From positions 1 through 39,138 of the IMG/VR virus record IMGVR_UViG_3300030118_006532: a stretch of 39,138 nucleotides of DNA. One strand, written 5' to 3'. The notes beneath the pieces were generated by a model. The model was not told where the DNA came from, made no database searches, and was given only the letters and a program-made list of their open reading frames with translations. Numbering within the stretch: position 1 is the stretch's first letter; each line of letters starts with the position of its first letter. Position numbers and translations under genes: made by a program. Shown here piece after piece: positions 25,394-39,138 of the stretch. Origin of the DNA: a virus.

Positions 25394-27613
25394 TTACTCA
25401 CACATAATTTTAAACAATCCTGTAGGTGTTGTTATACCAAATGATCTTGTAGAATTTTCACTTAAGTCAGAACTTAATGCTGTAATTGTAGAAATACCAG
25501 TAATAGTTAAAGAATCAAATTTTAAATTACCATCGGCAATTTGTAAGTTTGGTCGAATCGTTTTAGTCGATAGTCCATTTTCAGTTGGTGTAAATGGTGG
25601 AGATGTATCCTTTGGTGGACAACATAGAACTCTTTCATTAATATCACTAGATTCTTTTGTAACGGTAACTTTTTCATTCACTAAGAGTTTTGCTGTTGTG
25701 GCATTATTGATTACAATATTATTAGTATTAATTGTGGTTATTTGAGTATTGGCCGCAAATTGAGATCCAAGAACCCGATATGTAGCAGAATTATCTAATG
25801 CTGCTGTTCCTGAAACTGGAATGGTGGTATTTGCTGCATTTGTTTGTGTTGTGACGACTAAACATTCAGTACTTACTGGTGTACAGAATGCACTTAAAGA
25901 ATCATTAATTAAACCTTGATCTTGATAAAAATACAACTCCGTGCTAGTCATAGTTTTACTAGAAGAAAGTGTGACCTGTGTAGAACTTCCTGTGGTTGTA
26001 ATTCCAGTATATGAAGAAAAATTACCATTAGTCCCATCATTTCCAAGCACAATCATACCAGTTCTTAAGTTAGTAGTATTACCACTTGATATTGTGAGTG
26101 TGGTTCCACTACTACTTCCAGTTACTTTTTTTACAAATCCACGATGATCTATGAATGTTAGTGTATTTGTTGCTGTTGTAGTTGCACTATTATTCATAAT
26201 AATAAAACTATTAGTTAAAATATCTTCTACAACAGTATCATTTGGAATACCTGTTCCAAAAATAATATTTCCAACTTCAATATTATTTGTATTACTGATA
26301 GAAAGAACTTTTGAATTGTTTGTTAAATCACAACCAATGGTTGCTCTTACAATATCACTCACTGAAGTTTTTGGTTGATACTTCACATCAATTTTTTTAG
26401 TTGTTTTAACTTTAATATAATCATCTTTATCTGTTTCTCCACCGAGAGCAGACACTAAAGTTGTTCCTCCAAATTTAATTGAATTGTTGATAAAATTCTC
26501 AAAGGTGCTTTCACTAAAAACATAATCAGTAGCATATAAAAAAGTATATCTTAAATCTCCAGATCCTCCTGTAGGTAGAGTGACATTAATACCAAACTGC
26601 TTCTCAAAAGGTTCATTATTAGGATCAGTAGATGGACTGACAGAATTTGGAATAAAATATTTTATTCTTATACAATACTTTTCTAATTTGTTTAAAACAT
26701 ATGGTATAGTAATACTATCACTCGTTGATTGACCCATCTTTTTAAAGAAAGTTACATTGTTAGATCCACTAAAACTACCTGTAACTGCATTTCCAGAATC
26801 AACCTCAAACGTAATGACACCTGTGTTTGAATTTATCTGACTAACCACAGCTGTGTCTGATATTCGATTTGTTCCACTAGTGCTTGCACTCATTCCAATA
26901 GACACATTTACTGTATCAGATGCTGTGGTAAGAGTGATTTGTGATCCAGCACCAGAAGCAGATCCAGATACGGTTTTTGTTAAATTACATCTCGCTAACT
27001 CTTCATACTTATCACCTGTGCCACTTGTATGATGAGATTCTTTTTCAAATTCAAAAGTATAACAATTAACACTATTCAAACTAAAAGTATGAGTACCAGT
27101 TATGGTTGAACCAAAAAATCCCTCCCATAAAATACCACCATCACCATCGATTGATGTTGGATCTAATTTACCAGAGTATTGAAAATCACCATCTTCCCAA
27201 AAAGTATCAACTTTAAAAGGAGTTCCTGAAAAAATATCTTGACTAGTCTCATCAACATTATCGTTAGAATAATAATTAGCTGTCAATCCATTTCCACCTC
27301 TAGTGGTGGAGGATGTAAATAAAGAAAAAACATCTAAACGATTTTTAAAAGTAATTAATGGACTACTTGTAAATGTATTTCCATCTTCATTTGTTTCTTG
27401 AACTGCGGTATTAACAATTTGTCGATATTCAGTGGTTGTTATTCCACTTGTATATAAATCTCTAATTACATCTAAATCTTCTGATATGAAACTTCCACCA
27501 GAAATATTCGATAACCCATTAAGTAAATTATTTAATGCTGAAACAGGATTTGAAGTATCTGCTAAATTTTGATCTCTTCTTAAACCAATTCTTTTGTATA
27601 TCTTTAAAGGCAT
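25394..27613 (-). CDS. PA14-domain fibre protein on the minus strand
   Basis: A 739-residue protein transcribed against the other fibre genes. Residues 8-30 carry the shared motif RRDQNLADTSNPVSALNNLL. A PA14-like domain starts at about 109 (GLTANYYSN) and continues ILWEGFFGSTITGTHTFSL and CYTFEFEKES. It is interrupted by a Ser/Thr-rich module (about 195-285) and resumes at YVLNKLEKYCIRIKYFIP. PA14 domains commonly bind sugars, so host-surface binding is likely. The region about 405-620 holds further copies of the module (GNIIFGTGIPNDTVVEDI). The C-terminus is LKFDSLTITGISTITALSSD. A minus-strand CTAAATA box lies 15 bases upstream of the start. Whether its strand reflects separate control or a past inversion is unclear. 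Confidence 0.6.
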   Translation of the reverse strand: MPLKIYKRIGLRRDQNLADTSNPVSALNNLLNGLSNISGGSFISEDLDVIRDLYTSGITTTEYRQIVNTAVQETNEDGNTFTSSPLITFKNRLDVFSLFTSSTTRGGNGLTANYYSNDNVDETSQDIFSGTPFKVDTFWEDGDFQYSGKLDPTSIDGDGGILWEGFFGSTITGTHTFSLNSVNCYTFEFEKESHHTSGTGDKYEELARCNLTKTVSGSASGAGSQITLTTASDTVNVSIGMSASTSGTNRISDTAVVSQINSNTGVITFEVDSGNAVTGSFSGSNNVTFFKKMGQSTSDSITIPYVLNKLEKYCIRIKYFIPNSVSPSTDPNNEPFEKQFGINVTLPTGGSGDLRYTFLYATDYVFSESTFENFINNSIKFGGTTLVSALGGETDKDDYIKVKTTKKIDVKYQPKTSVSDIVRATIGCDLTNNSKVLSISNTNNIEVGNIIFGTGIPNDTVVEDILTNSFIIMNNSATTTATNTLTFIDHRGFVKKVTGSSSGTTLTISSGNTTNLRTGMIVLGNDGTNGNFSSYTGITTTGSSTQVTLSSSKTMTSTELYFYQDQGLINDSLSAFCTPVSTECLVVTTQTNAANTTIPVSGTAALDNSATYRVLGSQFAANTQITTINTNNIVINNATTAKLLVNEKVTVTKESSDINERVLCCPPKDTSPPFTPTENGLSTKTIRPNLQIADGNLKFDSLTITGISTITALSSDLSENSTRSFGITTPTGLFKIMCE

Positions 27614-28361: not shown

Positions 28362-31300
28362 ATGCCTCTTAATAAACTAGAGAATTTTATAAAGAACACT
28401 GAGGGTAAAATTCTCTATGTCAACCCAAATGATATAGACGCAACTGATAGTATATCTAATCAGGGAAATTCCTTAACTCAACCGTTTAAGACGATTCAAA
28501 GAGCTCTTCTTGAGTCTGCTAGGTTTTCATATTTGGGTGGAAATGATAATGATATTATTGAGAAGACAACAATATTGATATATCCTGGTGATCATACGAT
28601 TGATAATCGACCAGGTTTTGGAATTAAAGTAGATCCAGGCAATTCAAGTGCAGCACAAGTTGTATCTCCATCTGGTGCACTTGCTTCAGCATCTGAATTA
28701 TCCTTAACACTCAGTTCAAATTTTGATTTAACAGAAGAAGATAATATACTTTACAAATTTAATAGTATAAATGGTGGTGTAATTATACCCCGTGGAACGT
28801 CATTAGTAGGTTTAGATTTAAGAAAGACAAAGATAAGACCTAAGTACGTTCCAAATCCAACAGATCCAGATGCACCATATAGTTCTCTGTTTAGAGTCAC
28901 TGGTACTTGTTACTTTTGGCAATTTTCAATGTTTGATGCTGATGAAAATGGATTAGTATACACAGATAAGAGTGATTTCGGTACAAGTAATCAGTCAAAA
29001 CCAACGTTCTCCCACCATAAATTAAGTTGTTTTGAGTATGCGGATGGTGTAAATGTTCCTGAAGGATATACATTGACAGATTTGGGTCAATATTATGCTA
29101 AATTATCAAATGCTTATAATGTATCATCGACTCGAAATATTTTAGATGCTGATAGATATCCTACAAGTGAGACAGGTTTCGCACCACAAAGACCAGAATT
29201 TGAAATTGTTGGTGCTTTTGCCAACGATCCAATCGCTATGGCATCCATTAAATCTGGTGATGGTGCGACTCCTTCTACTACAATTACTGTCACAACAACG
29301 ACTGCTCATGGATTAAATACAGGTACTCCAATTAAAATTAAGGGTGTTCCAGTCCCTGATTATAATATATCCACAAAAGTTTCAAGTGTAATTAGTGCGA
29401 CTGAATTTACATATATTTTACCATTTGTTCGAAATAATTTACCACCAGACCCAAGTGCTGCTACAGGAACAATAACGATTGAGACTGATACCGTATCTGG
29501 TGCATCTCCATATATCTTTAACTGCTCTTTACGTTCTGTGTGGGGCATGAATGGTATGCTTGCTGATGGAAACAGAGCAACTGGATTCCGTTCAATGGTT
29601 GTTGCTCAGTTCACTGGTATATCACTACAAAAAGATGATCGTGCGTTTGTTAAGTATGACAAGTCTAATAGAACTTACGAAGGTTTAAATGTTACTTTGG
29701 TTAGAGGTTCTTCTCTATCAACTCAATCATCATCCACAGATAGTGCGAGTGTTTACCATTTAGATTCTGATGCTGTTTATCGAGAAGGATGGGGAACAAC
29801 TCATATTAAGATGGATAATGATGCCATCATGCAGATAGTTTCCGTGTTTGCGATAGGTTATCAACAACATTTTGATGCAAATGCTGGTGGTGACGCTTCG
29901 GTTACAAACTCTAACTCAAACTTTGGTCAAATATCACTATCATCAAAAGGATTTAAAAAAGCAGCGTTTGTTAAGGATAATAATGCATTTGTAACTTCGA
30001 TAATAACTCCAAGAGCAATTACAGGAAGTGATGCGAATATTGATTTCCAATCAATTGATGTCGGTGTTACAACTGCTGTTGGTATTTCAAGTCACCTTTA
30101 TCTATTTGGATTTACAAATCAGGATGATCCACCTCCAACATCAATACAGGGTTATCGAATTGGTGCTAGGCAAGATGATAAATTATCTATAAGATTTGTC
30201 GCAAAGAATGGAGCTATTGATTTTAATTCTGAAGCGTCCATTTTCATGACGGACAATTCTTTAGGAGTAGGTGCTACGGTTATTCAAGGCACATCATCGA
30301 AGCAAAAAAAATATGTTGTTCAATCAGGACCAACAGCTAATAAATTAGCTCTAGGATCTCATGAGATTCAAACTGGTGAAAAAATTAGAATATTCAGTCA
30401 CGATGGTGATTTACCAGAGAATATTGAGGATAACAAACTTTATTATGCGATTGATTTAGGTAATAATAATGAAATTAAATTGGCATCTTCCGCTACAAAT
30501 GCTAGTAACGGAACTGAAATTATAATTTTTGGTGGAACAAATCTTTATATTGAAAGTCGAGTTCATGATAAAGAAGCTGGAGACATAGGACATCCAGTAC
30601 AATTTGATACTAGTGTTAATAATTGGTTCTTACATGTTAATACTAATAATTCAATTTATACAGGTATATCAACACTTGGTGTTGGTGGCGATATTGGTCT
30701 TGGTCCGAAAACAGCTGTTACAACTATTAAGAGAATTGATGATCCACGAGGTCTTGATGAAAAAGTTTATAAGTTACGTGTAGTAATTCCGAAAGAAACA
30801 ATTCAGGGTAAAAATCCAGAAGAAGGATTTATTATTCAGGAATCAAGTAGCACAGGAGCAATTGACGATGCTGATCTCACGCTTACAACATTAGAACCAG
30901 CTGCGAGAACTAAGTTCAATGTCAATAAAAACTTAAGATTAATTGATAATGCCACAGTTTCGGGAACTACAGTTACTATTGAAACAGAACTTCCACATAA
31001 CTTAAAAGTGGGTGAAAACATTAATGTTAGGAATATTACAGATACTTCTAACACTGCTGGAACATTTGATGTTGGATATAACGGAACATTTGAAGTTAAT
31101 GGTATCACTGATGAAAAAACATTTACATATTCAAGAACTGATGTAAATGGGGTAACTCATACAATTCCTAGTTCACTTCAAAATAATATTTCTAATAGAA
31201 CTAAACTTTCTCCTAGATTTGAAAGAAATGATATTAAATCAAACTACTACATCTATCGAAATGAAGTTATAACACCTTATATTCAGGATATTCAGGATGG

Positions 31301-34300
31301 AGTATATCATCTTTTTGTCATAAAAGCAGATAATACTGTTACTGAGGAATTTGTAAATAACTCATACAGTCAGAGAGTTGTTGACTTATATCCACAAAGA
31401 GATAGAGATAACATTGAGGACAATCCTCCAACAGCAAAATCTTTTGCTCTTAGAAATCCTCTAGGTGATGTCGTTACAAACGAACTAAAAAATAGTATTA
31501 CTAGAGAATCATTAAACCAATTAGTCCAAGATTTTGGTCAAGGTCTTCGAATTTCTGGTGTATCTACAACAGATACTCTTGCCACTCTAACTTTTGATAG
31601 AAGACATAATCTTGGAGGACTTGTAACTGGTTCCATTACTCCTGGTTCTGGATATACAAATGGAACTTATCATAACGTTAAAATTTTAGAGGGTAATCAA
31701 GCTGGAACATGGTCTGGAGCTCTCGCAAAAGTGGTTGTCGCTGGTAATAGCGTATCAACTGTTGACATCACATCTGGTGGATCTGCCTATGCTGCTGGAA
31801 CATATTACTTTGAACAGGCAAAAATTAGTAATGGTAATGCTGATGCAAGATTTGTAGTTACTGCTGCTGGATTGTCAACAACTTCCGATTTAGATAATGT
31901 TCTACAAATTACAGGTCTTTCTACTTCAACTGATTTTTATGGAAGAATTACTTCAATTCCTTCAGCTACAACAGTTAGTCTTGCGAGAACAACTGGTGAT
32001 CCAGTTCCATCGATAGGTGAATTTGCGATAAATTTAGGTCCTTCACAGGTTGTTAATAGTGTTTATGAATCTACATCTGGAATTAGTACATTCACCACAT
32101 CCACAGGTCATGGTTTAGTTGCTGGTAATTCATTCCAAGTAGTTAATTCAAGTAATGTTAACTTAGGAGAATTCAACGTAAAAGGAGTTGAAAGTCCAGT
32201 TAAATTCAGTGCTTCCACAAGTCCTAGATTAACTTCAAATGTAACCGATGGTAGAATTTTACGTCATGGAATGGATGCTGCTGATGCTATATCTGATGCA
32301 GCAAATGAGAGTCTCGGTGCGAGAGGTATGTCATTCTATGATGGTGAAAATCTAAAATTAGTCGCCAATATAACCAATACAGCAACAGCACTTCGAGTCG
32401 ATGTTCCTAATGCTGGTATTGGAACAGCAAATCGTTTACCACTTGGATCCTATATTCAAATTGATGCAGAAATGATGAGAATTACCAGTTCTGTATTAAC
32501 AGGATCTCAAAATGATGAAATTACTGTAATTCGTGGTGTTTTAGGAACAATACAGAAACCACACACTGTTAATTCGGTAATTCGAAAGATTAAACCACTA
32601 CCAATAGAATTAAGAAGACCCTCGATTATTCGTGCTTCGGGTCATACGTTTGAATATGTTGGTTATGGTCCAGGTAACTATTCAACTGGTTTACCTCAAG
32701 TTCAGGTAAGAACACTTAACGAAAGAGAAGAATTTTTAGTACAATCACAAGAAAAATCATGCGGAACTGTTGTTTATACTGGTATGAACAACCGAGGTGA
32801 CTTCTTTATTGGTAACAAGAGAGTTAGTTCTGCTACTGGTCAGGAAAGAACATTTGATGCTCCGATTCCAACGATTACAGGTGAAGATCCCTCAAGATTG
32901 TCGGTTATTTTTGATGAGGTTGTTGTTAAAGAAAGATTAATTGTTGAAGGTGGTCGAACCAATAAGATTTTATCTCAGTTTGATGGTCCTGTAACCTTTA
33001 ATAAGGAAGTTAAAATTAATGATAGTCTTACGGTAACAGGTTCATTAAAACTTGAATCTGCTATTGAAGTTACTGCTGAGATTCAATCTACTAATAAAGA
33101 TACAGGTGCTTTGGTTATACAGAATGGTGGTCTTGGTGTTGAGAACAATCTAAACGTTGGTGGTATTACTACGATAACTGATTATCTTAATGTAACAGAT
33201 GGACACATCGCTATAGAAGCTGGCACTTCAAATGAAGGTTATCGAATTGATTCTGGTAGTGACATTGAGATGAATCTTCATAGATCTACTGTGTCTGGTA
33301 CACCAATAGTTCTTGATGTCATAGATGGTAAGAGACTTATTCTTGGTGCTAATGGCACTGCTAACGTTGAAATAGTTGATGATGTAAATGGTACTAACAG
33401 AGCAGTATTTACACAAAATGAACAGAAATTATATTGGGATGGAAATGAAAAATTCAAAACAGAACCTTCTGGTGTCTTAGTTACTGGAATTACTACAACT
33501 GGTAATTTAATGGTTGGAGCAGCTGCCACAGTTACTGGATTACTTAATGCCAAGGGTGATGTATCACTCGGAGATATATCAACTGACACAATATTAATTG
33601 GTGGAAGCATTAATTCAAATCTTCTTCCTAAAGATAATGATGCTAAGAATTTAGGTAGTCTGCAGAAAAAGTGGAAGAATCTATTCATATCTGAAAATAT
33701 CGATACTGTCGGTATAGTATCTGCTGGTTTTCTTGAAGGAAATAATTTAGATGTAAATAGAGTAGCTATCGTTGAAGCTGGCACTAATGCACCTAGAATA
33801 GTCACACATAGTGGATTACAGTATAATGCTACTGCTGGTGTATGTTCCGCAACCACTTTTGCAGGAAGTCTTCAAGGTAATGCCAATACAGCAGATGATT
33901 TAGCTATTACTGGTACAAATCAAATTGTATATCAATCATCAAATAATAATTCAGATGTTTTAGATGCTGGTTCTGATGGTCAAATACTAAAATCTAATGG
34001 TAGTTCTTCAAAACCCTCATGGACAAGTGACATTACTGGTAATGCTGCTAGTGCCGATACTGTAGATGTAACCGCAAATGACACAGATGCGGATCAATTC
34101 TTACTCTTTAAAGAAACTTCCAGCACTGAATCTGGTGCGACAATAAGAGTTGATGCTGGTGCTAAGTATAACCCTAATAGCAATCAACTTACCATTAATG
34201 GTAATATTATTGCTTTCGCATCAGATGATCGTCTTAAAACTAACAAAGCAGAAATTACAAATGCTCTAGATAAAGTTGTATCATTAAGTGGATTTACTTA

Positions 34301-34523
34301 TAATTTTAATGAAACTGCTGCTGAGTTAGGATTTAATACAGACATCACATATGTTGGTGTTTCTGCACAAGAAGTCAAGAAAGTATTACCTGAAGCAGTT
34401 GCTCCAGCTCCAGTTGATGGGAAGTACATGACAGTTCAGTATGAAAAAATTGTACCATTATTAATTGAGGCAATTAAGGAACTTAAAGCAGAGGTCGATC
34501 AACTTAAAAAACACACCCACTAG
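28362..34523 (+). CDS. Giant tail fibre with C-terminal S74 chaperone
   Basis: A 2053-residue fibre, the largest gene in the window. The N-terminus (15-95) resembles a pectate-lyase-like entry: GKILYVNPNDIDATDSISNQ, then QPFKTIQRALLESARF and TTILIYPGDHTI. The middle has fibre modules such as TTTTAHGLNTGTPIKIKGVP, GSITPGSGYTNGTYHNVKI and, late, shaft repeats (VKINDSLTVTGSLKL, LNVGGITTITDYLNVTDG). Residues 1954-2053 form a peptidase S74 intramolecular chaperone with the Ser1954/Lys1959 dyad in SDDRLKTN, a VGVSAQEVKKVLPEAV block and a terminal coiled coil. The family trimerises the fibre and then cuts itself off before the Ser. The mature fibre would then be about 1953 residues. It is a probable long or side tail fibre; the receptor is unknown. 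Confidence 0.75.
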   Translation: MPLNKLENFIKNTEGKILYVNPNDIDATDSISNQGNSLTQPFKTIQRALLESARFSYLGGNDNDIIEKTTILIYPGDHTIDNRPGFGIKVDPGNSSAAQVVSPSGALASASELSLTLSSNFDLTEEDNILYKFNSINGGVIIPRGTSLVGLDLRKTKIRPKYVPNPTDPDAPYSSLFRVTGTCYFWQFSMFDADENGLVYTDKSDFGTSNQSKPTFSHHKLSCFEYADGVNVPEGYTLTDLGQYYAKLSNAYNVSSTRNILDADRYPTSETGFAPQRPEFEIVGAFANDPIAMASIKSGDGATPSTTITVTTTTAHGLNTGTPIKIKGVPVPDYNISTKVSSVISATEFTYILPFVRNNLPPDPSAATGTITIETDTVSGASPYIFNCSLRSVWGMNGMLADGNRATGFRSMVVAQFTGISLQKDDRAFVKYDKSNRTYEGLNVTLVRGSSLSTQSSSTDSASVYHLDSDAVYREGWGTTHIKMDNDAIMQIVSVFAIGYQQHFDANAGGDASVTNSNSNFGQISLSSKGFKKAAFVKDNNAFVTSIITPRAITGSDANIDFQSIDVGVTTAVGISSHLYLFGFTNQDDPPPTSIQGYRIGARQDDKLSIRFVAKNGAIDFNSEASIFMTDNSLGVGATVIQGTSSKQKKYVVQSGPTANKLALGSHEIQTGEKIRIFSHDGDLPENIEDNKLYYAIDLGNNNEIKLASSATNASNGTEIIIFGGTNLYIESRVHDKEAGDIGHPVQFDTSVNNWFLHVNTNNSIYTGISTLGVGGDIGLGPKTAVTTIKRIDDPRGLDEKVYKLRVVIPKETIQGKNPEEGFIIQESSSTGAIDDADLTLTTLEPAARTKFNVNKNLRLIDNATVSGTTVTIETELPHNLKVGENINVRNITDTSNTAGTFDVGYNGTFEVNGITDEKTFTYSRTDVNGVTHTIPSSLQNNISNRTKLSPRFERNDIKSNYYIYRNEVITPYIQDIQDGVYHLFVIKADNTVTEEFVNNSYSQRVVDLYPQRDRDNIEDNPPTAKSFALRNPLGDVVTNELKNSITRESLNQLVQDFGQGLRISGVSTTDTLATLTFDRRHNLGGLVTGSITPGSGYTNGTYHNVKILEGNQAGTWSGALAKVVVAGNSVSTVDITSGGSAYAAGTYYFEQAKISNGNADARFVVTAAGLSTTSDLDNVLQITGLSTSTDFYGRITSIPSATTVSLARTTGDPVPSIGEFAINLGPSQVVNSVYESTSGISTFTTSTGHGLVAGNSFQVVNSSNVNLGEFNVKGVESPVKFSASTSPRLTSNVTDGRILRHGMDAADAISDAANESLGARGMSFYDGENLKLVANITNTATALRVDVPNAGIGTANRLPLGSYIQIDAEMMRITSSVLTGSQNDEITVIRGVLGTIQKPHTVNSVIRKIKPLPIELRRPSIIRASGHTFEYVGYGPGNYSTGLPQVQVRTLNEREEFLVQSQEKSCGTVVYTGMNNRGDFFIGNKRVSSATGQERTFDAPIPTITGEDPSRLSVIFDEVVVKERLIVEGGRTNKILSQFDGPVTFNKEVKINDSLTVTGSLKLESAIEVTAEIQSTNKDTGALVIQNGGLGVENNLNVGGITTITDYLNVTDGHIAIEAGTSNEGYRIDSGSDIEMNLHRSTVSGTPIVLDVIDGKRLILGANGTANVEIVDDVNGTNRAVFTQNEQKLYWDGNEKFKTEPSGVLVTGITTTGNLMVGAAATVTGLLNAKGDVSLGDISTDTILIGGSINSNLLPKDNDAKNLGSLQKKWKNLFISENIDTVGIVSAGFLEGNNLDVNRVAIVEAGTNAPRIVTHSGLQYNATAGVCSATTFAGSLQGNANTADDLAITGTNQIVYQSSNNNSDVLDAGSDGQILKSNGSSSKPSWTSDITGNAASADTVDVTANDTDADQFLLFKETSSTESGATIRVDAGAKYNPNSNQLTINGNIIAFASDDRLKTNKAEITNALDKVVSLSGFTYNFNETAAELGFNTDITYVGVSAQEVKKVLPEAVAPAPVDGKYMTVQYEKIVPLLIEAIKELKAEVDQLKKHTH

Positions 34524-34528
34524 GAATT

Positions 34529-35713
34529 ATGCCAATACAAGGTTCTGGACAAATCAGTATGAGGGATATAAAGGACGAGTTTGGTCCTAATCCTGGAAAT
34601 AATATCGGTCCAGTAAGTATGGAGGACTACCGATTACAGGAAGAAGACATTGATGGTCTTACTGATTTACCACTAGATGAAAATGCTGGTCCTTCTAGTA
34701 ATACTGACATACCTAGAACTGGTTCACTTTCTTTTGAAAATTTTTACAATGCCAAGTTAAATGTTGTTGTAAGAATGACATCACAACCTGGTGATAATCC
34801 TTCACAACAAAATGCGAGAAGTATATATAACGGAAACACAAATCAAACTGTGGTTAGATGTGTTGGAAATTTAAGAACTAGGCCAGCAGCTACCAATATG
34901 AATGGACGTAGAGTTATAATTGATGTAAATAAACAGATTAGTAGTGGATCAAATCAAAATAATAAAAATACTAATAGACAACAATGTGCGATGAGAACTG
35001 GTGAATGGGTAACGGGAACACAGTTAACAGTTCATATTGGTGCTTCTGGTTCAATTTATGGTGCTGGTGGTGATGGTGGTGATGGAAATGCGGTTAGTGG
35101 AAAAGCTGAAAGTGGAAGTACAGGAACAAGTGCACTGGGAATAGATTATGGAACAACTAGTATTCCGACACAAATTATTAATAAAGGATATATTCAAGCA
35201 GGTTACGGTGGCGGTGGCGGTGGCGGTGGTCTTACAGAAGACCAAGAAAAAGACGCTGAAGATGACCAGTACCTAAAAGGTGGTGGAGGAGGAGGTGGTG
35301 CTGGCGTACCAGCTGGAAAAGGTGGTATAAGTGGAGAAGGATATGATGGTAATGACAATAGAAATTATATAGATGCTGAATTTCCTGGAGGAGATGGAAC
35401 AGCAACTGAAGGTGGTTCAAGAGGAGATCATCAGGTGTCTAGAGAATTTGATGGCATAAGTGGTGAAGGTGGAAGAGGATGTGATCCACAAGAACCTGTA
35501 GATGAGGGAGAGGAAACTGGAGGTCAAGAACCAGTTGATGATATGGAGAAAAATGGAACAAGTCCAGGTGAACCTGGAGAAGCAGGAACACCAGGATATT
35601 CTATTATAGTTGAAGGAGCAGCAAACACAGTTAATATCACGGAGTCTGGTAGTGGTGCTATTGCTGAAGAAAACGCTAGAATTGTTTACTCTACAACTGT
35701 TATAAGTAGTTAA
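34529..35713 (+). CDS. Glycine-rich tail fibre adhesin, partly collagen-like
   Basis: A 394-residue protein. The N-terminus SGQISMRDIKDEFGPN and VSMEDYR is a short fibre-attachment motif common in marine T4-like tail proteins. Residues 175-340 are extremely Gly-rich, with runs of eight G, GGDGGDGN, and KGGGGGGGAGVPAGKGGISG. This recalls the glycine-rich loops of T-even gp38 adhesins. Near 345-360 is a short Gly-X-Y stretch, GEPGEAGTPG, like collagen. TAGGA lies four bases before the ATG, five bases after the giant fibre stop, so the two are co-expressed. It is a likely receptor-binding tip. Whether it acts as the gp38 equivalent or as a separate fibre is open. Confidence 0.6.
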   Translation: MPIQGSGQISMRDIKDEFGPNPGNNIGPVSMEDYRLQEEDIDGLTDLPLDENAGPSSNTDIPRTGSLSFENFYNAKLNVVVRMTSQPGDNPSQQNARSIYNGNTNQTVVRCVGNLRTRPAATNMNGRRVIIDVNKQISSGSNQNNKNTNRQQCAMRTGEWVTGTQLTVHIGASGSIYGAGGDGGDGNAVSGKAESGSTGTSALGIDYGTTSIPTQIINKGYIQAGYGGGGGGGGLTEDQEKDAEDDQYLKGGGGGGGAGVPAGKGGISGEGYDGNDNRNYIDAEFPGGDGTATEGGSRGDHQVSREFDGISGEGGRGCDPQEPVDEGEETGGQEPVDDMEKNGTSPGEPGEAGTPGYSIIVEGAANTVNITESGSGAIAEENARIVYSTTVISS

Positions 35714-35738: not shown

Positions 35739-36107
35739 ATGAATATAATTTTTAGAATAGATGAATATCTACCTGAAACAAATCAGATAGTTATTCAACT
35801 TTGTAAAGAGACTTCGAGAAATTCTATTCTTTCTCATGAAAAGGTAGCAATTAATTGTGAAACCTTAGATTTATATGATGCCGAATCTTTTAGTCATACT
35901 TTATCTGCAAAGTATGGATCAGGTATTATTGCCGAGGAGAATAGAAATGAACCAATATTAGACGATAATAAAAATTCTGAAATTATTAAAGGTGATTTAA
36001 ATTTAGAAAAATTAGTGGGTAAAGTCATTAAATATGATTTTTATGATTTACAAAAACATGAATTTAAGTCACGTTTTCGTTTAAATGCGAGAAGGGTTGA
36101 ATTATGA
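35739..36107 (+). CDS. Conserved protein of unknown function, first of accessory cassette
   Basis: A 122-residue protein. The N-terminus MNIIFRIDEYLPETNQIVIQ is a two-strand hairpin, followed by LCKETSRNSILSHEKVAINC. The C-terminus NLEKLVGKVIKYDFYDLQ and FRLNARRVEL is basic. I believe related proteins occur near fibre genes in marine T4-like phages, with no known function. No Shine-Dalgarno sequence is visible. The stop shares bases with the next start (ATGA), so it opens a translationally coupled cassette. A cytoplasmic soluble protein is expected. Confidence 0.55.
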   Translation: MNIIFRIDEYLPETNQIVIQLCKETSRNSILSHEKVAINCETLDLYDAESFSHTLSAKYGSGIIAEENRNEPILDDNKNSEIIKGDLNLEKLVGKVIKYDFYDLQKHEFKSRFRLNARRVEL

Positions 36108-36592
36108 CAAAATCGTATGCTAAGAGATATCTAAAAAGGTGTGAAGAATTTATTCTTTGTGCCGAACTTGGTGGAAAAGATTTCATAGGAATTGAACGTT
36201 CAAAATTTAGATACACATTATATCAATATTTCATACATGGCTCGGCATCATTTTATGAAATAAGTGATGATGATGGTATTGGTTCCAGAACTATTGCAAA
36301 AGAAAAACAGTTAATTAATGTTAAAAAATATCTTAACAAAAATGTTCTTTGTCAAGCTCATGATAATTTTTATGTTGCGGGATTCAATCCTCTAGATAAA
36401 AATGACGATTGGGATGGAAAAATAATAGAGGAGTCTTTTCGTGGTGATGATCACTCTTGGTTAATTTGTTTTGATGGAAATCCAATTGTTAATGGAAAAG
36501 AATTAAAACTCTTTGATTATGCCAAATTAAAAGATAAAGAATATGATGTTAATCTTAATGGTGGGGTTATAGTGATGTTTACGAAATTATGA
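36104..36592 (+). CDS. Unknown protein, possibly cupin-like C-terminus
   Basis: A 162-residue protein I do not recognise. The N-terminus is basic and helical (YAKRYLKRCEEFILCAELGG). The C-terminal half alternates strands: SWLICFDGNPIVNGKELKLF, then LKDKEYDVNLNGGVIVMF, which could be a jelly-roll or cupin-like half, in line with the oxygenase genes that follow. No complete metal-binding HxD or HxH motif is clear; GDDHSW is the only candidate. ATGA overlaps on both sides couple it to its neighbours. A role as substrate-binding or accessory protein for the oxygenases is speculation. Confidence 0.45.
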   Translation: MTKSYAKRYLKRCEEFILCAELGGKDFIGIERSKFRYTLYQYFIHGSASFYEISDDDGIGSRTIAKEKQLINVKKYLNKNVLCQAHDNFYVAGFNPLDKNDDWDGKIIEESFRGDDHSWLICFDGNPIVNGKELKLFDYAKLKDKEYDVNLNGGVIVMFTKL

Positions 36593-37197
36593 TAGTCAAT
36601 GAATTATTAAAAAATAAAGATAAAGTCCAGAACTTTTTAGATAATCTAAATTGTGATGCTGATAAATGGTTTGTATATAACTGTGATACGGGAGATAACC
36701 CAACTTTAAGAAAGTTCTCCCATAGAATGAGTTATCGCATTATGAATAATAATACGGAAATGTTTAAATGTAGATTTTTATATTTAAAGGTAAAAAAAGA
36801 TATGAGAGTAACTTGTGAACATTATGATGCGATAGAAGTGGATGGTATGGATATTGAGATAGATAAGTATGAGGATATTGGTAGTGGGTATGTACGATCA
36901 GATATATTTGGAGAATTGACTAAATTATTTTCCGATGATAGAATATATACTGTACACTACATAGAAGCATTAGGACCAGTGGATCCTCATCGAGATCCGT
37001 GGACTTATGATAAGGATTATAGAAATATTATATTCTATGACAATATCCCAAAAGATGCTATACTAAAGATTGAAGGTAAAGAAGTTCCTATTAATTCACC
37101 TCAATTAACTAATTTTGGTAATGAGGAACATACATATCAATTTTCTACTAGACCATTTCCCTTAAAAATATTACATATTGACTATGAGTTATCTTGA
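36589..37197 (+). CDS. Putative 2-oxoglutarate/Fe(II) oxygenase (HxD type)
   Basis: A 202-residue protein. The C-terminal half looks like a double-stranded beta-helix oxygenase: GPVDPHRDPW supplies H134-x-D136, strands NIIFYDNIPKDAILKIEG follow, and H181 with R188 (EEHTYQFSTRPFPLKILHID) are placed where the distal Fe-binding His and the 2-oxoglutarate-binding Arg would be. The N-terminal half (1-120) is not recognised. Enzymes of this type hydroxylate protein side chains or small molecules. The gene overlaps the previous one by ATGA and the next by 14 bases. The motif spacing fits, but the family call is moderate because overall similarity is not obvious. Confidence 0.5.
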   Translation: MIVNELLKNKDKVQNFLDNLNCDADKWFVYNCDTGDNPTLRKFSHRMSYRIMNNNTEMFKCRFLYLKVKKDMRVTCEHYDAIEVDGMDIEIDKYEDIGSGYVRSDIFGELTKLFSDDRIYTVHYIEALGPVDPHRDPWTYDKDYRNIIFYDNIPKDAILKIEGKEVPINSPQLTNFGNEEHTYQFSTRPFPLKILHIDYELS

Positions 37198-37894
37198 TAC
37201 ATCTAAGTATGAAGTTTGTAAAATACTAGAAGATAATTATTTAACTATTCTTGATGAATTTAATAAATTCAATTTTGTTGATGAAGTAAATAATGATTAT
37301 GATGAAAATGCCGTATTCTGGACAAAAGGGCATGAAGCATCTTTAAAGATGTTAAGGAGTAAAGATACTCCTGTGAGTAAATATGTTGAAAACTTAGATA
37401 GAATGAATGAATGGTTAGAGAATGATGATTTTGGTATATACAAGAAGTCTCATAGTTGGTATGGAATGTATATGAATAAAAAAAGTATATGGGAATCTGT
37501 TTTATTAGCAACTAAAATATTTTATCCAAAGTATGCTTCATTCCATAAAAGAAACAAGGAAGAAATAAAAAATAATTTGAAACTTACACCAATATGTACT
37601 AAATTCTTCAATAAAACTATAAAATTTTTTGAGGATCGTTCTGAAGTCATATCAATTCAAATCGCTAAGTTACCTGCTGGTCGTTCTTTACCATTACATA
37701 GAGGAGATAGAAAGATTAGAAGAATTCATTTGGGGTTAGATGTTCCTAAAGGTGATATTAAATTTTGTGTTAAAGGTGAAGAGAGGGAGTGGGAAAACGG
37801 CAAATGTTTAGGTTTTAATGATTTTTTTGAGCATCGAGCATGGAATAATACAGATAAAGATCGTATTAATTTAATATTGGATATAAAACGATGA
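37184..37894 (+). CDS. Aspartyl/asparaginyl beta-hydroxylase-like protein
   Basis: A 236-residue protein (from the ATG at 37184; a TTG two codons upstream is less likely). The C-terminal region matches the aspartyl/asparaginyl beta-hydroxylase fold: LPAGRSLPLHRGD (H172, D175), RRIHLGLDVP (R180, H182), then EWENGKCLGFNDFFEHRAWN with H217 and R227 in DKDRINLILDI. In this family two His ligate iron and the Arg and His hold 2-oxoglutarate. The N-terminal half is helical and not recognised. The protein substrate is unknown; virion or host proteins are both possible. It overlaps the previous gene by 14 bases and the methyltransferase by ATGA. Confidence 0.72.
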   Translation: MSYLDTSKYEVCKILEDNYLTILDEFNKFNFVDEVNNDYDENAVFWTKGHEASLKMLRSKDTPVSKYVENLDRMNEWLENDDFGIYKKSHSWYGMYMNKKSIWESVLLATKIFYPKYASFHKRNKEEIKNNLKLTPICTKFFNKTIKFFEDRSEVISIQIAKLPAGRSLPLHRGDRKIRRIHLGLDVPKGDIKFCVKGEEREWENGKCLGFNDFFEHRAWNNTDKDRINLILDIKR

Positions 37895-38652
37895 ATAATT
37901 CTAAAATTATGTTTGCTAGGGAAAGTGTAAATAAATTCTATGATGATACTTCACCCGAAATATGGAAAAAAATCATAGGGGATGATTTACATTATCATGT
38001 GGGTTGGGGTGATGGAGATATTTTTTATAATTCAATCGAGTATTTGTATAAATTTATCCCCGAAAAATCAACTGTATTAGATTGTGGATGTGGATGGGGT
38101 GGTACAGGAAAGGTAATTAAAAGAGATTTAGAATGTAAAACCAGTGGAGTTACAATCTCTAAAACTCAATTTGATTATATTAAAAACAATAATATATTTG
38201 ATGTTTTTCATAATGACCTACATGAATTTAAACCCAATAAACAATATGATATTTGTTTATTCATTGAATCATTTTGTCATCTTGAAAATCCATCAAAAGT
38301 CATATCTAATTTATCAAATTTTTCAGATAAAATAATATTAAGAGAATACCACTTAAAAAATAGTATTCACCACAAAAAATATTCTGATGCTTGGATGATG
38401 AATATGTATGGTAAAAACACTATCATTTCAATGTTTAATGATTATGGTTTTAATCTGACATATCAAGATGAACATTATGATTATGGACTAGAACCAACGT
38501 TAGATCTATGGTTGAAGAATCTAAAAAATATTGATAAAAAAGATAAAACACCACATATTCGCACACTTGAAATAAGTGCAAAATATTTAAAAAAGAATCT
38601 AAAAAATATTCTAAATGATATTGGATTGGCAACTTTTGTATTTGAGAAATGA
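37891..38652 (+). CDS. Class I SAM-dependent methyltransferase
   Basis: A 253-residue protein with a Rossmann-type methyltransferase core. Motif I is VLDCGCGWGGTGKVI (62-76), which binds S-adenosylmethionine. SGVTISKTQFDYIK (85-98) is the acidic-loop/post-I region as in cyclopropane-synthase-like small-molecule methyltransferases. YDICLFIESFCHLENPSKVI is motif IV and the following helix. The N-terminal LHYHVGWGDGD is also typical of that group. No DNA-methylase NPPY/DPPY motif is present, so DNA modification is unlikely. It sits between two oxygenase genes, coupled by ATGA on both sides. The substrate is unknown; a small molecule, lipid or glycan is likeliest. Confidence 0.75.
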   Translation: MNNSKIMFARESVNKFYDDTSPEIWKKIIGDDLHYHVGWGDGDIFYNSIEYLYKFIPEKSTVLDCGCGWGGTGKVIKRDLECKTSGVTISKTQFDYIKNNNIFDVFHNDLHEFKPNKQYDICLFIESFCHLENPSKVISNLSNFSDKIILREYHLKNSIHHKKYSDAWMMNMYGKNTIISMFNDYGFNLTYQDEHYDYGLEPTLDLWLKNLKNIDKKDKTPHIRTLEISAKYLKKNLKNILNDIGLATFVFEK

Positions 38653-39138
38653 CATTAAAAATTTCTGACAATGACAATATAATCAAAAATGAAATACTAA
38701 ACGGACAGTTTAGTAATAATATGTCTGACCACATATTATATCTTCCATCGTTTATTGATAAAGATATTTGTAAGAGTGTAGTAAACTCTTTAAATAATCT
38801 TGAAAAAGATTACTCTACACCCTACACAGATGGATTATTAAATGATAATGCTGACACTTATTTTGATCCTGATATAGAGTATATTGATAGAGTAAAAGAC
38901 AGAATATTTGTAGATGGTCTCAAAGAATATGCCGATAAGATTAGAGCATTTAACTGGTCATATTATGATACAAAATCATTTCACTGTTCTGAAATGATTA
39001 TTCGTAGATATAATCAAGGTTCTGAATTTAAATATCACCATGATGATATTATTGGAGAAATGTTCCAACATTGGTTCATAAGAAGACAAAACATATTAAC
39101 TTGTAATTTTTATTTTAGTGATGCTAAGAATTATGAGG
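38649..39138 (+). CDS. Prolyl-4-hydroxylase-like 2OG/Fe(II) oxygenase, truncated by window end
   Basis: The first 163 residues of a gene that continues beyond the window. ILYLPSFIDKDICKSVVNSL (29-48) is the typical N-terminal helix of prolyl-4-hydroxylase-like enzymes. MIIRRYNQGSEFKYHHDD (116-133) gives the iron-binding H-x-D (H130/D132 or H131/D133) after the conserved RY.G..F..H pattern, and NILTCNFYFSDAKNYE is the following strand leading to the usual EGG motif. The distal His and Lys/Arg lie outside. Such proteins are common in marine T4-like phages. The start overlaps the methyltransferase stop (ATGA). The nearby collagen-like adhesin is a conceivable substrate. Confidence 0.75.
   Translation, partial: MTLKISDNDNIIKNEILNGQFSNNMSDHILYLPSFIDKDICKSVVNSLNNLEKDYSTPYTDGLLNDNADTYFDPDIEYIDRVKDRIFVDGLKEYADKIRAFNWSYYDTKSFHCSEMIIRRYNQGSEFKYHHDDIIGEMFQHWFIRRQNILTCNFYFSDAKNYE

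Follow-up and report, generated by a model that had tools for sequence, protein, structure and literature searches.

Here, we analyzed the end of a T4-like phage sequence, the IMG/VR virus record IMGVR_UViG_3300030118_006532 (39,138 bases, the entire record; referred to below as the window), where six genes (P1 to P6; Table 1) follow one another downstream of a Gly-rich protein from position 35739 until the series breaks off inside P6 at the end of the record. The stretch from 36104 to past the window end may constitute a single chemical-tailoring module that T4-like marine phages inherit as a unit and that acts on one acceptor, a reading to which we give somewhat less than even odds (probability of roughly 0.45). 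Conserved gene order, conserved active-site residues, the joint location of the genes P2 to D161 on one related contig (L008), and the fusion of P2 with P5 on another (L029) point to one pathway. In relatives, this gene set continues after P6 with X, which has a predicted prenyltransferase fold, and D161, an aspartyl/asparaginyl hydroxylase (AspH)-type oxygenase. Gene order, protein families or predicted folds, catalytic-residue conservation, and the placement of the block apart from the Gly-rich gene were computed.

Gene order is conserved around a variable middle

Relatives were collected by scans of viral contigs and reduced to distinct contigs for the order counts, with second copies or parts of the same contigs dropped (L001, L004, L005, L009, L012, L013, L020, L022, L028, L044, L045, and L046); counts of junctions and fibre neighbours dropped the first nine of these only. 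Because several contigs are closely related by eye (L002/L003, L014/L015, L016/L017/L018, L019/L047, L024/L025, and L030/L031), contig counts overstate the number of independent events.

As read from the sequence, every junction in the window series is an overlap. P1/P2 (36107/36104), P2/P3 (36592/36589), P4/P5 (37894/37891), and P5/P6 (38652/38649) overlap at ATGA, and the end of P3 (37197) overlaps the ATG start of P4 (37184) by 14 bases (ATGAGTTATCTTGA; an alternative TTG start of P4 lies at 37178). The order P2-P3-P4-P5-P6 was present in 10/10 contigs that carry P3 (the window, L002, L003, L006, L007, L008, L023, L024, L025, and L027; P3 is 47 to 89% identical to the window copy), with mostly overlapping junctions, and this conservation is not due to chance. 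Local insertions and duplications were also observed: a TauD-type dioxygenase gene (phrog_24590; E = 2.7e-63) lies between P2 and P3 at L002:4482-5408 and is absent from the close relative L003, and L024 has P4 in two copies.

The nine P3-bearing contigs besides the window continue into X and D161 (X is present twice in L008, and D161 is cut by the contig end in L007). X was found in 22 contigs, with P6 directly upstream in 18/22; of the other four, L014, L021, and L049 start inside X or at most 29 bases from it, leaving L050 as the true exception, where the X copy (L050:6484-7137) stands among small genes. D161 lies directly downstream of X in 20/22 contigs; L050 stops 142 bases past X, and L051 has AspH-type genes upstream instead.

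The genes between P2 and P6 vary. In L017 and L018 the order is P2-sulfotransferase-P4-P6-X-D161, and in L019, L047, and L048, from which P3, P4, and P5 are all absent, it is P2-P6-X-D161. That these three genes can be missing suggests a constant frame (P2, P6, X, and D161) with a variable middle slot. In L029, P2 and the methyltransferase P5 are fused in a single 404-amino-acid (aa) open reading frame (ORF) matched by both profiles (L029:6137-7351), followed by P6, where the contig stops. The same enzyme kinds recur in a rearranged order at L051:102-6775: a fibre-like gene (by eye), a 237-aa protein, a 437-aa methyltransferase, two AspH-like genes, P6, X, and a 383-aa methyltransferase.

An earlier sequence-only reading of this DNA had described an accessory cassette that starts at 35739, overlaps at every junction (four ATGA and one of 14 bases), and encodes an ordered modification pathway, and had named conserved order in relatives as one way to check it. 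The overlaps and the conserved order are as it described. Its single pathway agrees with gene order, residues, the L008 block, and the L029 fusion; the ordered series gives way to a constant frame with an optional middle. P2 to P6 stand as cassette content, X and the fourth oxygenase, D161, having been missed since they lie past the window end in relatives. The start at 35739 does not hold: P1 goes with the tail-fibre region, and the unit begins at 36104, on the evidence of a single contig (L008, below).

Table 1. Coordinates and assignments of the genes at the end of the window
Gene	Coordinates	Strand	Length	Assignment	Basis
P2	36104-36592	+	162 aa	First module gene	Alignment of 13 sequences (A17)
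P3	36589-37197	+	202 aa	AspH-like 2-oxoglutarate (2OG) oxygenase, HxD...H (H134, D136, H181)	Predicted fold and motif
P4	37184-37894	+	236 aa	Aspartyl/asparaginyl beta-hydroxylase family PF05118, HxG...H two-histidine type	Profile and motif
P5	37891-38652	+	253 aa	S-adenosylmethionine (SAM) methyltransferase of small-molecule type	PF13489, E = 5.7e-9; CMAS, E = 7.9e-8
P6	38649-39138 (runs off end)	+	163 aa inside window	2OG-Fe(II) oxygenase of PKHD/PiuC/prolyl-4-hydroxylase type	Profiles and motif
P1	35739-36107	+	122 aa	Fibre-associated, probably outside the separable module	Adjoins Gly-rich gene on L008 contig
Gly-rich gene	34529-35713	+	394 aa	Adhesin-like fibre protein; context only	Homologue of L002 Gly-rich protein
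Long tail-fibre gene	28362-34523	+	2053 aa	Tail fibre; context only	Matched genes annotated "fiber protein" (S-M1) and "tail fiber protein" (B23)

A single contig separates the module from P1 and the fibre region

On the 188-kb L008 contig, P2-P3-P4-P5-P6-X-X-D161 lie together at ~146 to 141 kb, ~19 kb from the Gly-rich gene (166339-167316) and P1 (165369-165698), which remain side by side. The region at ~167 to 164.6 kb comprises the Gly-rich gene, the end of a P4H-like gene (match to the P6 profile; E = 2.5e-6), P1, and a sulfotransferase-like gene (by eye). This separation, seen on a single contig, indicates that P1 is separable, that the remaining genes can form a block, and that the separable unit starts at 36104; on this evidence, P1 was rejected as a member of the separable module. 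The L008 contig also encodes a photosystem reaction-centre protein (PF00124; E = 3.5e-88), and its carrier was therefore taken as a cyanophage.

Other identities were also considered for P1. A match to MuDR fell below threshold (E = 5.5e-4; 20.1 bits against a cut-off of 20.8) and was taken as chance, and a role as a ribosomally synthesized and posttranslationally modified peptide (RiPP) precursor was considered, but the C-terminal end of P1 shows, by eye, conservation and not variability, and P1 adjoins the Gly-rich gene on the L008 contig. The L007 copy of P1 matched one single-cell virus record among phage records. P2 looks cupin-like by eye and had no family match in Pfam, NCBIfam, or PDB sequences.

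Substitution patterns were compared between the window and two relatives (L002 and L006; Nei-Gojobori, with some dS values near saturation). The ratio of nonsynonymous to synonymous divergence (dN/dS) was 0.06 to 0.33 for P2 to P6 and 0.32 to 0.48 for P1. Against L002 (window 36589-37894; L002:5405-6701), dS was 0.38 for P3 and P4 and 1.1 to 1.6 for P1, P2, P5, and P6, the higher values being near saturation; against L006, it was 0.94 for P3 and 1.79 for P4. The low P3 and P4 values relative to their neighbours in the window-L002 comparison suggest recent exchange of the P3-P4 pair.

Four oxygenases of AspH and PKHD type

Motif counts were taken from aligned subsets (A14 to A16, A18, and A19; 10, 16, 14, 14, and 16 rows, respectively) rather than from all copies. 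P4 matched PF05118 well above the curated cut-off (E = 1.7e-25; 90.2 bits against 22.6) and AspH itself by phmmer (E = 5.9e-9). The letters H-R-G-D, present in the window copy, align to H-T-G-P of AspH; H and G are conserved in 13/14 copies (L027 differs at the first H) and the distal H and the Arg in 14/14, the D in only 5/14. AspH binds iron with two histidines (PMC10947486, in part). Given the poor conservation of the D, we read P4 as a two-histidine oxygenase of the AspH type, and an HxxD reading was ruled out. Among phage records, only Pseudomonas phage Itty13 matched P4 (two records, over 36% of the query).

The three P3 motif residues are invariant (10/10 aligned copies). P3 had no match to PF05118 or another Pfam oxygenase (10 members; E of 0.1), comparison of its profile with that of P4 was negative (Prob 0.1), and comparison with D161 was weak (Prob 26.6 and 16.6; E = 0.0007 and 0.0015). 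The predicted model (predicted local distance difference test [pLDDT] of 85.7) has a double-stranded beta-helix fold. In VIA, rows 1 to 11 were all human AspH (Z of 9.7 to 10.9 over 146 to 147 residues; 2.9 to 3.0 Å), and in Foldseek, ranks 1 and 2 were free-proline hydroxylases (first matches to L-proline cis-4-hydroxylase; E = 1.9e-4; template modelling [TM] score of 0.45), with cupins and AspH lower. P3 was assigned as AspH-like because the predicted fold settled what the profile comparisons had left weak or negative. A search of phage records with P3 found none. D161 is likewise an AspH-type oxygenase: the L002 copy scores 24.3 bits against the PF05118 cut-off of 22.6, HxD...H is kept in 16/16 copies, and the protein is 49% identical to "D/B-b-hydroxylase DiO" of P-HM2.

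The window copy of P6, which stops before the distal His, matched phrog_61 (E = 3.1e-7) and had no Pfam match. The full-length L002 homologue matched PF13640 (E = 4.1e-13) and PiuC (E = 2.3e-10), and P6 homologues scored E = 4e-11 against the NCBIfam PiuC/YbiX-type family, under its cut-off. HxD is conserved in 14/14 copies and the distal His in the 13/13 that are long enough. In phage records, the truncated window P6 found none and the full-length L002 protein found 90 records, mostly below 30% identity among the matches listed.

The sequence-only reading had claimed three oxygenase-like genes with HxD or HxxD motifs, belonging to different subfamilies, and had held that loss of key residues would speak against the pathway. 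P3, P4, and P6 are oxygenase-like as claimed, all of the 2OG-Fe(II) type, and their key residues are conserved at the counts given above; the HxxD motif of P4 is instead the HxG...H of AspH. P6 does belong to a distinct, PKHD/prolyl-hydroxylase-like subfamily, but P3 and P4 are both AspH-like. Its description of P5 as a SAM methyltransferase lacking DNA-methylase motifs agrees with the family matches described next.

A small-molecule-type methyltransferase and shifting sulfotransferases

P5 matched none of the DNA-methylase families; the families listed were general, small-molecule or, weakly, rRNA methyltransferases. The weak matches included the PHROG family "tRNA methyltransferase" (E = 4.7e-5) and the rRNA methyltransferase TlyA (E = 2.9e-4). 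The nearest solved structures were small-molecule N-methyltransferases and cyclopropane synthases. In the PDB, the P5 profile also matched BpumL, a peptide N-methyltransferase (E = 5.2e-6). Searches of phage records with P5 and with the L002 sulfotransferase found none.

Sulfotransferases occur at shifting positions, with matches to Sulfotransfer_2 in L017 and L018 (E = 2.3e-10 and 2.7e-9) and to Sulfotransfer_1 in L003 (E = 1.1e-4, at its cut-off). Sulfotransferase-like genes adjoin module or fibre genes at L002:9318-10028, L024:4794-5549, L017:765-1415, and L055 (contig ~164.6 to 165.3 kb); among these, the Pfam score of the L002 copy is under the cut-off, Pfam gave no match to the L024 copy at 0.01, and the copy in L055 was recognized by eye only.

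X has a predicted prenyltransferase fold

Complete copies of X are 217 to 256 aa long. The predicted model (pLDDT of 87.9; predicted TM score of 0.86) has a PT-barrel fold according to its structural matches. Foldseek ranks 1 to 9 were all ABBA prenyltransferases (E = 3.3e-5 to 1.4e-3), as were 50/50 VIA rows among the matches listed (Z of 9.7 to 11.1 over 192 to 232 residues; 4.0 to 4.8 Å). These included the cyanobactin enzyme PatF (4bg2; Z of 10.4; root mean square deviation [rmsd] of 4.1 over 198 aligned residues) and the arginine prenyltransferase DciF (Z of 10.2). Seven residues (R104, K113, N167, K217, K219, K229, and Y231) are invariant in 16/16 copies; these basic, Asn, and Tyr residues are candidates for a diphosphate site, being of the kinds expected there.

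By sequence, X stands apart from described families. Pfam searches with six members gave two chance-level matches, neither a prenyltransferase, and NCBIfam searches with two members gave none; tblastn with two queries against 50,697 phage records found none at 0.01. Among bacterial genomes, a scan that detects patterned relatives only returned 135 pattern stretches, none of which was confirmed. Structure-only matches to the X model were found in BFVD (A0A1D7SG87 of S-RIM44, A0A1D8KGK9 of S-CAM1, and A0A1D8KJE1 of S-CAM3; E = 1e-3 to 4e-3). The X profile found nothing in the S-CAM1 and S-RIM44 records (NC_020837 and KU594607; S-CAM3 was not searched), and these structure matches therefore stay a lead.

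The acceptor and alternative readings

In the proposed mechanism, P3, P4, and D161 (AspH type) and P6 (PKHD type) would hydroxylate the acceptor, P5 would methylate it using SAM, with a sulfotransferase replacing or joining P5 in some relatives, and X would transfer to it a prenyl group from the host pool of dimethylallyl or geranyl diphosphate. By analogy, a side chain of a peptide or protein is the most likely acceptor, since AspH (PMC10947486), prolyl hydroxylases, and the small cyanobactin ABBA enzymes all belong to kinds with members that act on amino-acid residues. Cyanobactin ABBA enzymes prenylate peptide Trp, Tyr, Thr, or Ser (PMC7253389, in part).

The leading candidate acceptor is a virion host-recognition (fibre or adhesin) protein. 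In 11 contigs (the window, L002, L003, L007, L018, L019, L023, L024, L025, L027, and L029), module genes come after the Gly-rich gene. In L030 to L033, distant P5 relatives (L030:2798-3544) lie ~35 bases upstream of a 3284- to 3304-aa homologue of the window long-fibre protein, and the P5 relative is itself preceded by a 2OG oxygenase gene in L030 (PF13640; E = 1.2e-7) and L032 (by eye) but not in L033. The rearranged enzyme set of L051 adjoins its fibre-like gene (by eye), and marine-phage islands list Fe(II) oxygenases under "host recognition" (PMC3909814, in part). It is a doubtful extension of this idea that T4-like marine (cyano)phages have a dedicated posttranslational pathway in natural-product style, comprising a viral ABBA prenyltransferase family and diverged AspH-type oxygenases, and use it to diversify their own host-recognition proteins with hydroxyl or halide, methyl or sulfate, and prenyl groups, a lineage-exchanged capping enzyme altering receptor binding.

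Several points weigh against a single tailoring module with a peptide or fibre acceptor. The enzyme activities, the reaction order, and the acceptor are ones that we infer, and P3, P4, and P5 are dispensable in three contigs (above). L008 and L050 show that these genes can lie away from fibre genes, so proximity argues only weakly for a fibre substrate, and ten further P5 relatives (L034 to L043) had no match to three fibre queries in the DNA of those loci. We infer from relatives that the window phage itself carries X and D161 beyond base 39138; neither is seen in it. The Foldseek TM scores of X are just 0.44 to 0.52 (7 to 10 Å rmsd; ranks 1 to 9), its VIA rmsd values are those given above, and X had no family beyond chance level in PDB sequences and none in PHROGs (L002 copy). 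With modest scores and no family match, the prenyltransferase call draws on the predicted fold and the conserved basic residues. P5 resembles cyclopropane-lipid synthases as well as small-molecule methyltransferases, and P4 scored against OlsC (E = 1.6e-13) and LpxO (E = 5.6e-12) and D161 against LpxO (E = 5.2e-4), all far under curated cut-offs. Finally, the HxA/G...H pattern is common to 2OG halogenases (PMC10947486, in part), so P4 need not be a hydroxylase; its motif would be compatible with halogenation, which its nearest family does not favour.

The strongest rival on the acceptor, although we consider it the less probable one, is a small-molecule pathway that would make or alter, by hydroxylation, methylation, and prenylation, a diffusible metabolite that is aromatic or derived from an amino acid (a signal, a siderophore-like compound, or one directed at the host). 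The affinities of P5 to small-molecule N-methyltransferases, the free-proline hydroxylases at the top of the P3 Foldseek list, and the many ABBA entries matched by X that are named for small aromatic substrates would all fit such a pathway, as would the ability of the module to sit far from structural genes. However, no scaffold gene (peptide synthetase or polyketide synthase) is apparent by eye among the neighbouring genes examined, although no search was aimed at one, and a lytic phage would seem to gain little from investing in a burst of metabolite.

It is improbable that these are unlinked accessory genes of a hypervariable tail-fibre island whose order reflects common descent and selection for compact late transcription. 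Fe(II)-dependent oxygenases do make up 8/390 in Table 1 of a study of marine-phage metaviromic islands (PMC3909814, in part), TauD and P4H-like oxygenase genes were gained or lost among relatives, the dS values suggest a recent exchange of P3 and P4 between lineages, and X occurs without P6 in L050. Nevertheless, the block apart from the Gly-rich gene in L008, the P2-P5 fusion in L029, and the recurrence of the same enzyme kinds, reordered, in L051 argue against this reading.

Slightly more improbable still is modification of a lipid or surface glycan that alters the envelope of the infected host, for example for superinfection exclusion. The sub-cut-off OlsC and LpxO scores of P4 and D161 and the scores of P5 against cyclopropane fatty acid synthases point in this direction, and sulfotransferases can act on glycans; however, P3 lies closest to AspH, a protein hydroxylase, and we know of no ABBA prenyltransferase that acts on lipids or glycans. 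A role in DNA or RNA modification or repair is very improbable and suits the enzyme set poorly: AlkB ranks under AspH in the P3 VIA fold list and UvsW-type helicase-like and DNA methyltransferase-like genes (by eye) lie downstream in relatives, but P3 and P4 are AspH-like, P6 is PKHD-like, and to our knowledge the ABBA prenyltransferase fold has no DNA role. DNA repair has been proposed for cyanophage 2OG oxygenases from nearby uvs genes, although in S-SZBM1 the oxygenase genes are scattered (PMC9146016, in part).

Relation to known systems

Every enzyme superfamily in the module is already known, and phage 2OG oxygenases are common. The closest likeness in composition is to cyanobactin and other RiPP clusters (PatF/PagF/LynF/TruF), which likewise combine a small ABBA-fold protein (PatF being the match with a Z of 10.4) with an oxygenase, a methyltransferase, and other tailoring enzymes in a single operon. 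The module differs in that X has no NCBIfam or Pfam family and its carriers are T4-like phages; no precursor peptide or cyclase was recognized in it, ORFs below 50 aa not having been systematically searched. With human AspH and PF05118, P4 shares HxG...H and the aligned Arg, whereas P3 and D161 share the fold or profile but have HxD...H. Unlike AspH, the module proteins (161 to 238 aa) have no evident TPR domain or EGF-like substrate by eye, and several diverged copies occur per operon.

Cyanophage 2OG-Fe(II) oxygenase accessory genes (phrog_61, phrog_81, and P-HM2 DiO) are related to P6 and D161, and S-SZBM1 has nine 2OG oxygenase copies (PMC9146016, in part). Over the 20-kb and 16-kb stretches of P-HM2 and MED4-213 examined, the D161 relative is unaccompanied by P6, X, or P5. 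P6 homologues match the PiuC/YbiX PKHD-type hydroxylases by sequence and differ in belonging to a tailoring operon.

Within the literature and families searched, two features may be new, judging in part from the predicted fold of X: a phage ABBA-fold family and a conserved phage operon in which an ABBA fold is combined with a methyltransferase and with oxygenases of AspH and PKHD type. Among the open-access PMC titles listed as matches, none dealt with an ABBA prenyltransferase of phages or with a module of this kind; subscription papers and preprints were outside this search, so the absence of reports is weak evidence. The available part of a review on natural products and phages (PMC12360287) has no word starting "prenyl." The module would represent a natural-product-style tailoring operon in an unexpected carrier. 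Gene order, fusion, and shared location tie several cyanophage-type 2OG oxygenases to a methyltransferase and a prenyltransferase-fold family, and the module offers testable chemistry (hydroxyl, methyl, sulfate, and prenyl mass shifts) with a defined gene set.

Genomic context of the window

The assignment of the window to a T4-like phage follows from PHROG families matched by its baseplate, head-closure, tail-tube, and other tail genes. Between bases 20000 and 39138, six nucleotide matches were found, all within the long tail-fibre gene (75 to 84% identity) and to Prochlorococcus phage P-SSM5, Synechococcus phages, and marine single-cell viruses. Homologues of this gene are present in L003, L007, L019, L023, L027, and L029. 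The window Gly-rich protein had no match in PHROG or Pfam, and its L002 homologue had a weak PHROG tail-fibre match (phrog_11439; E = 1.9e-4). Among the plus-strand structural genes, a 739-aa ORF with no PHROG match at 1e-3 lies on the minus strand at 25394-27613.

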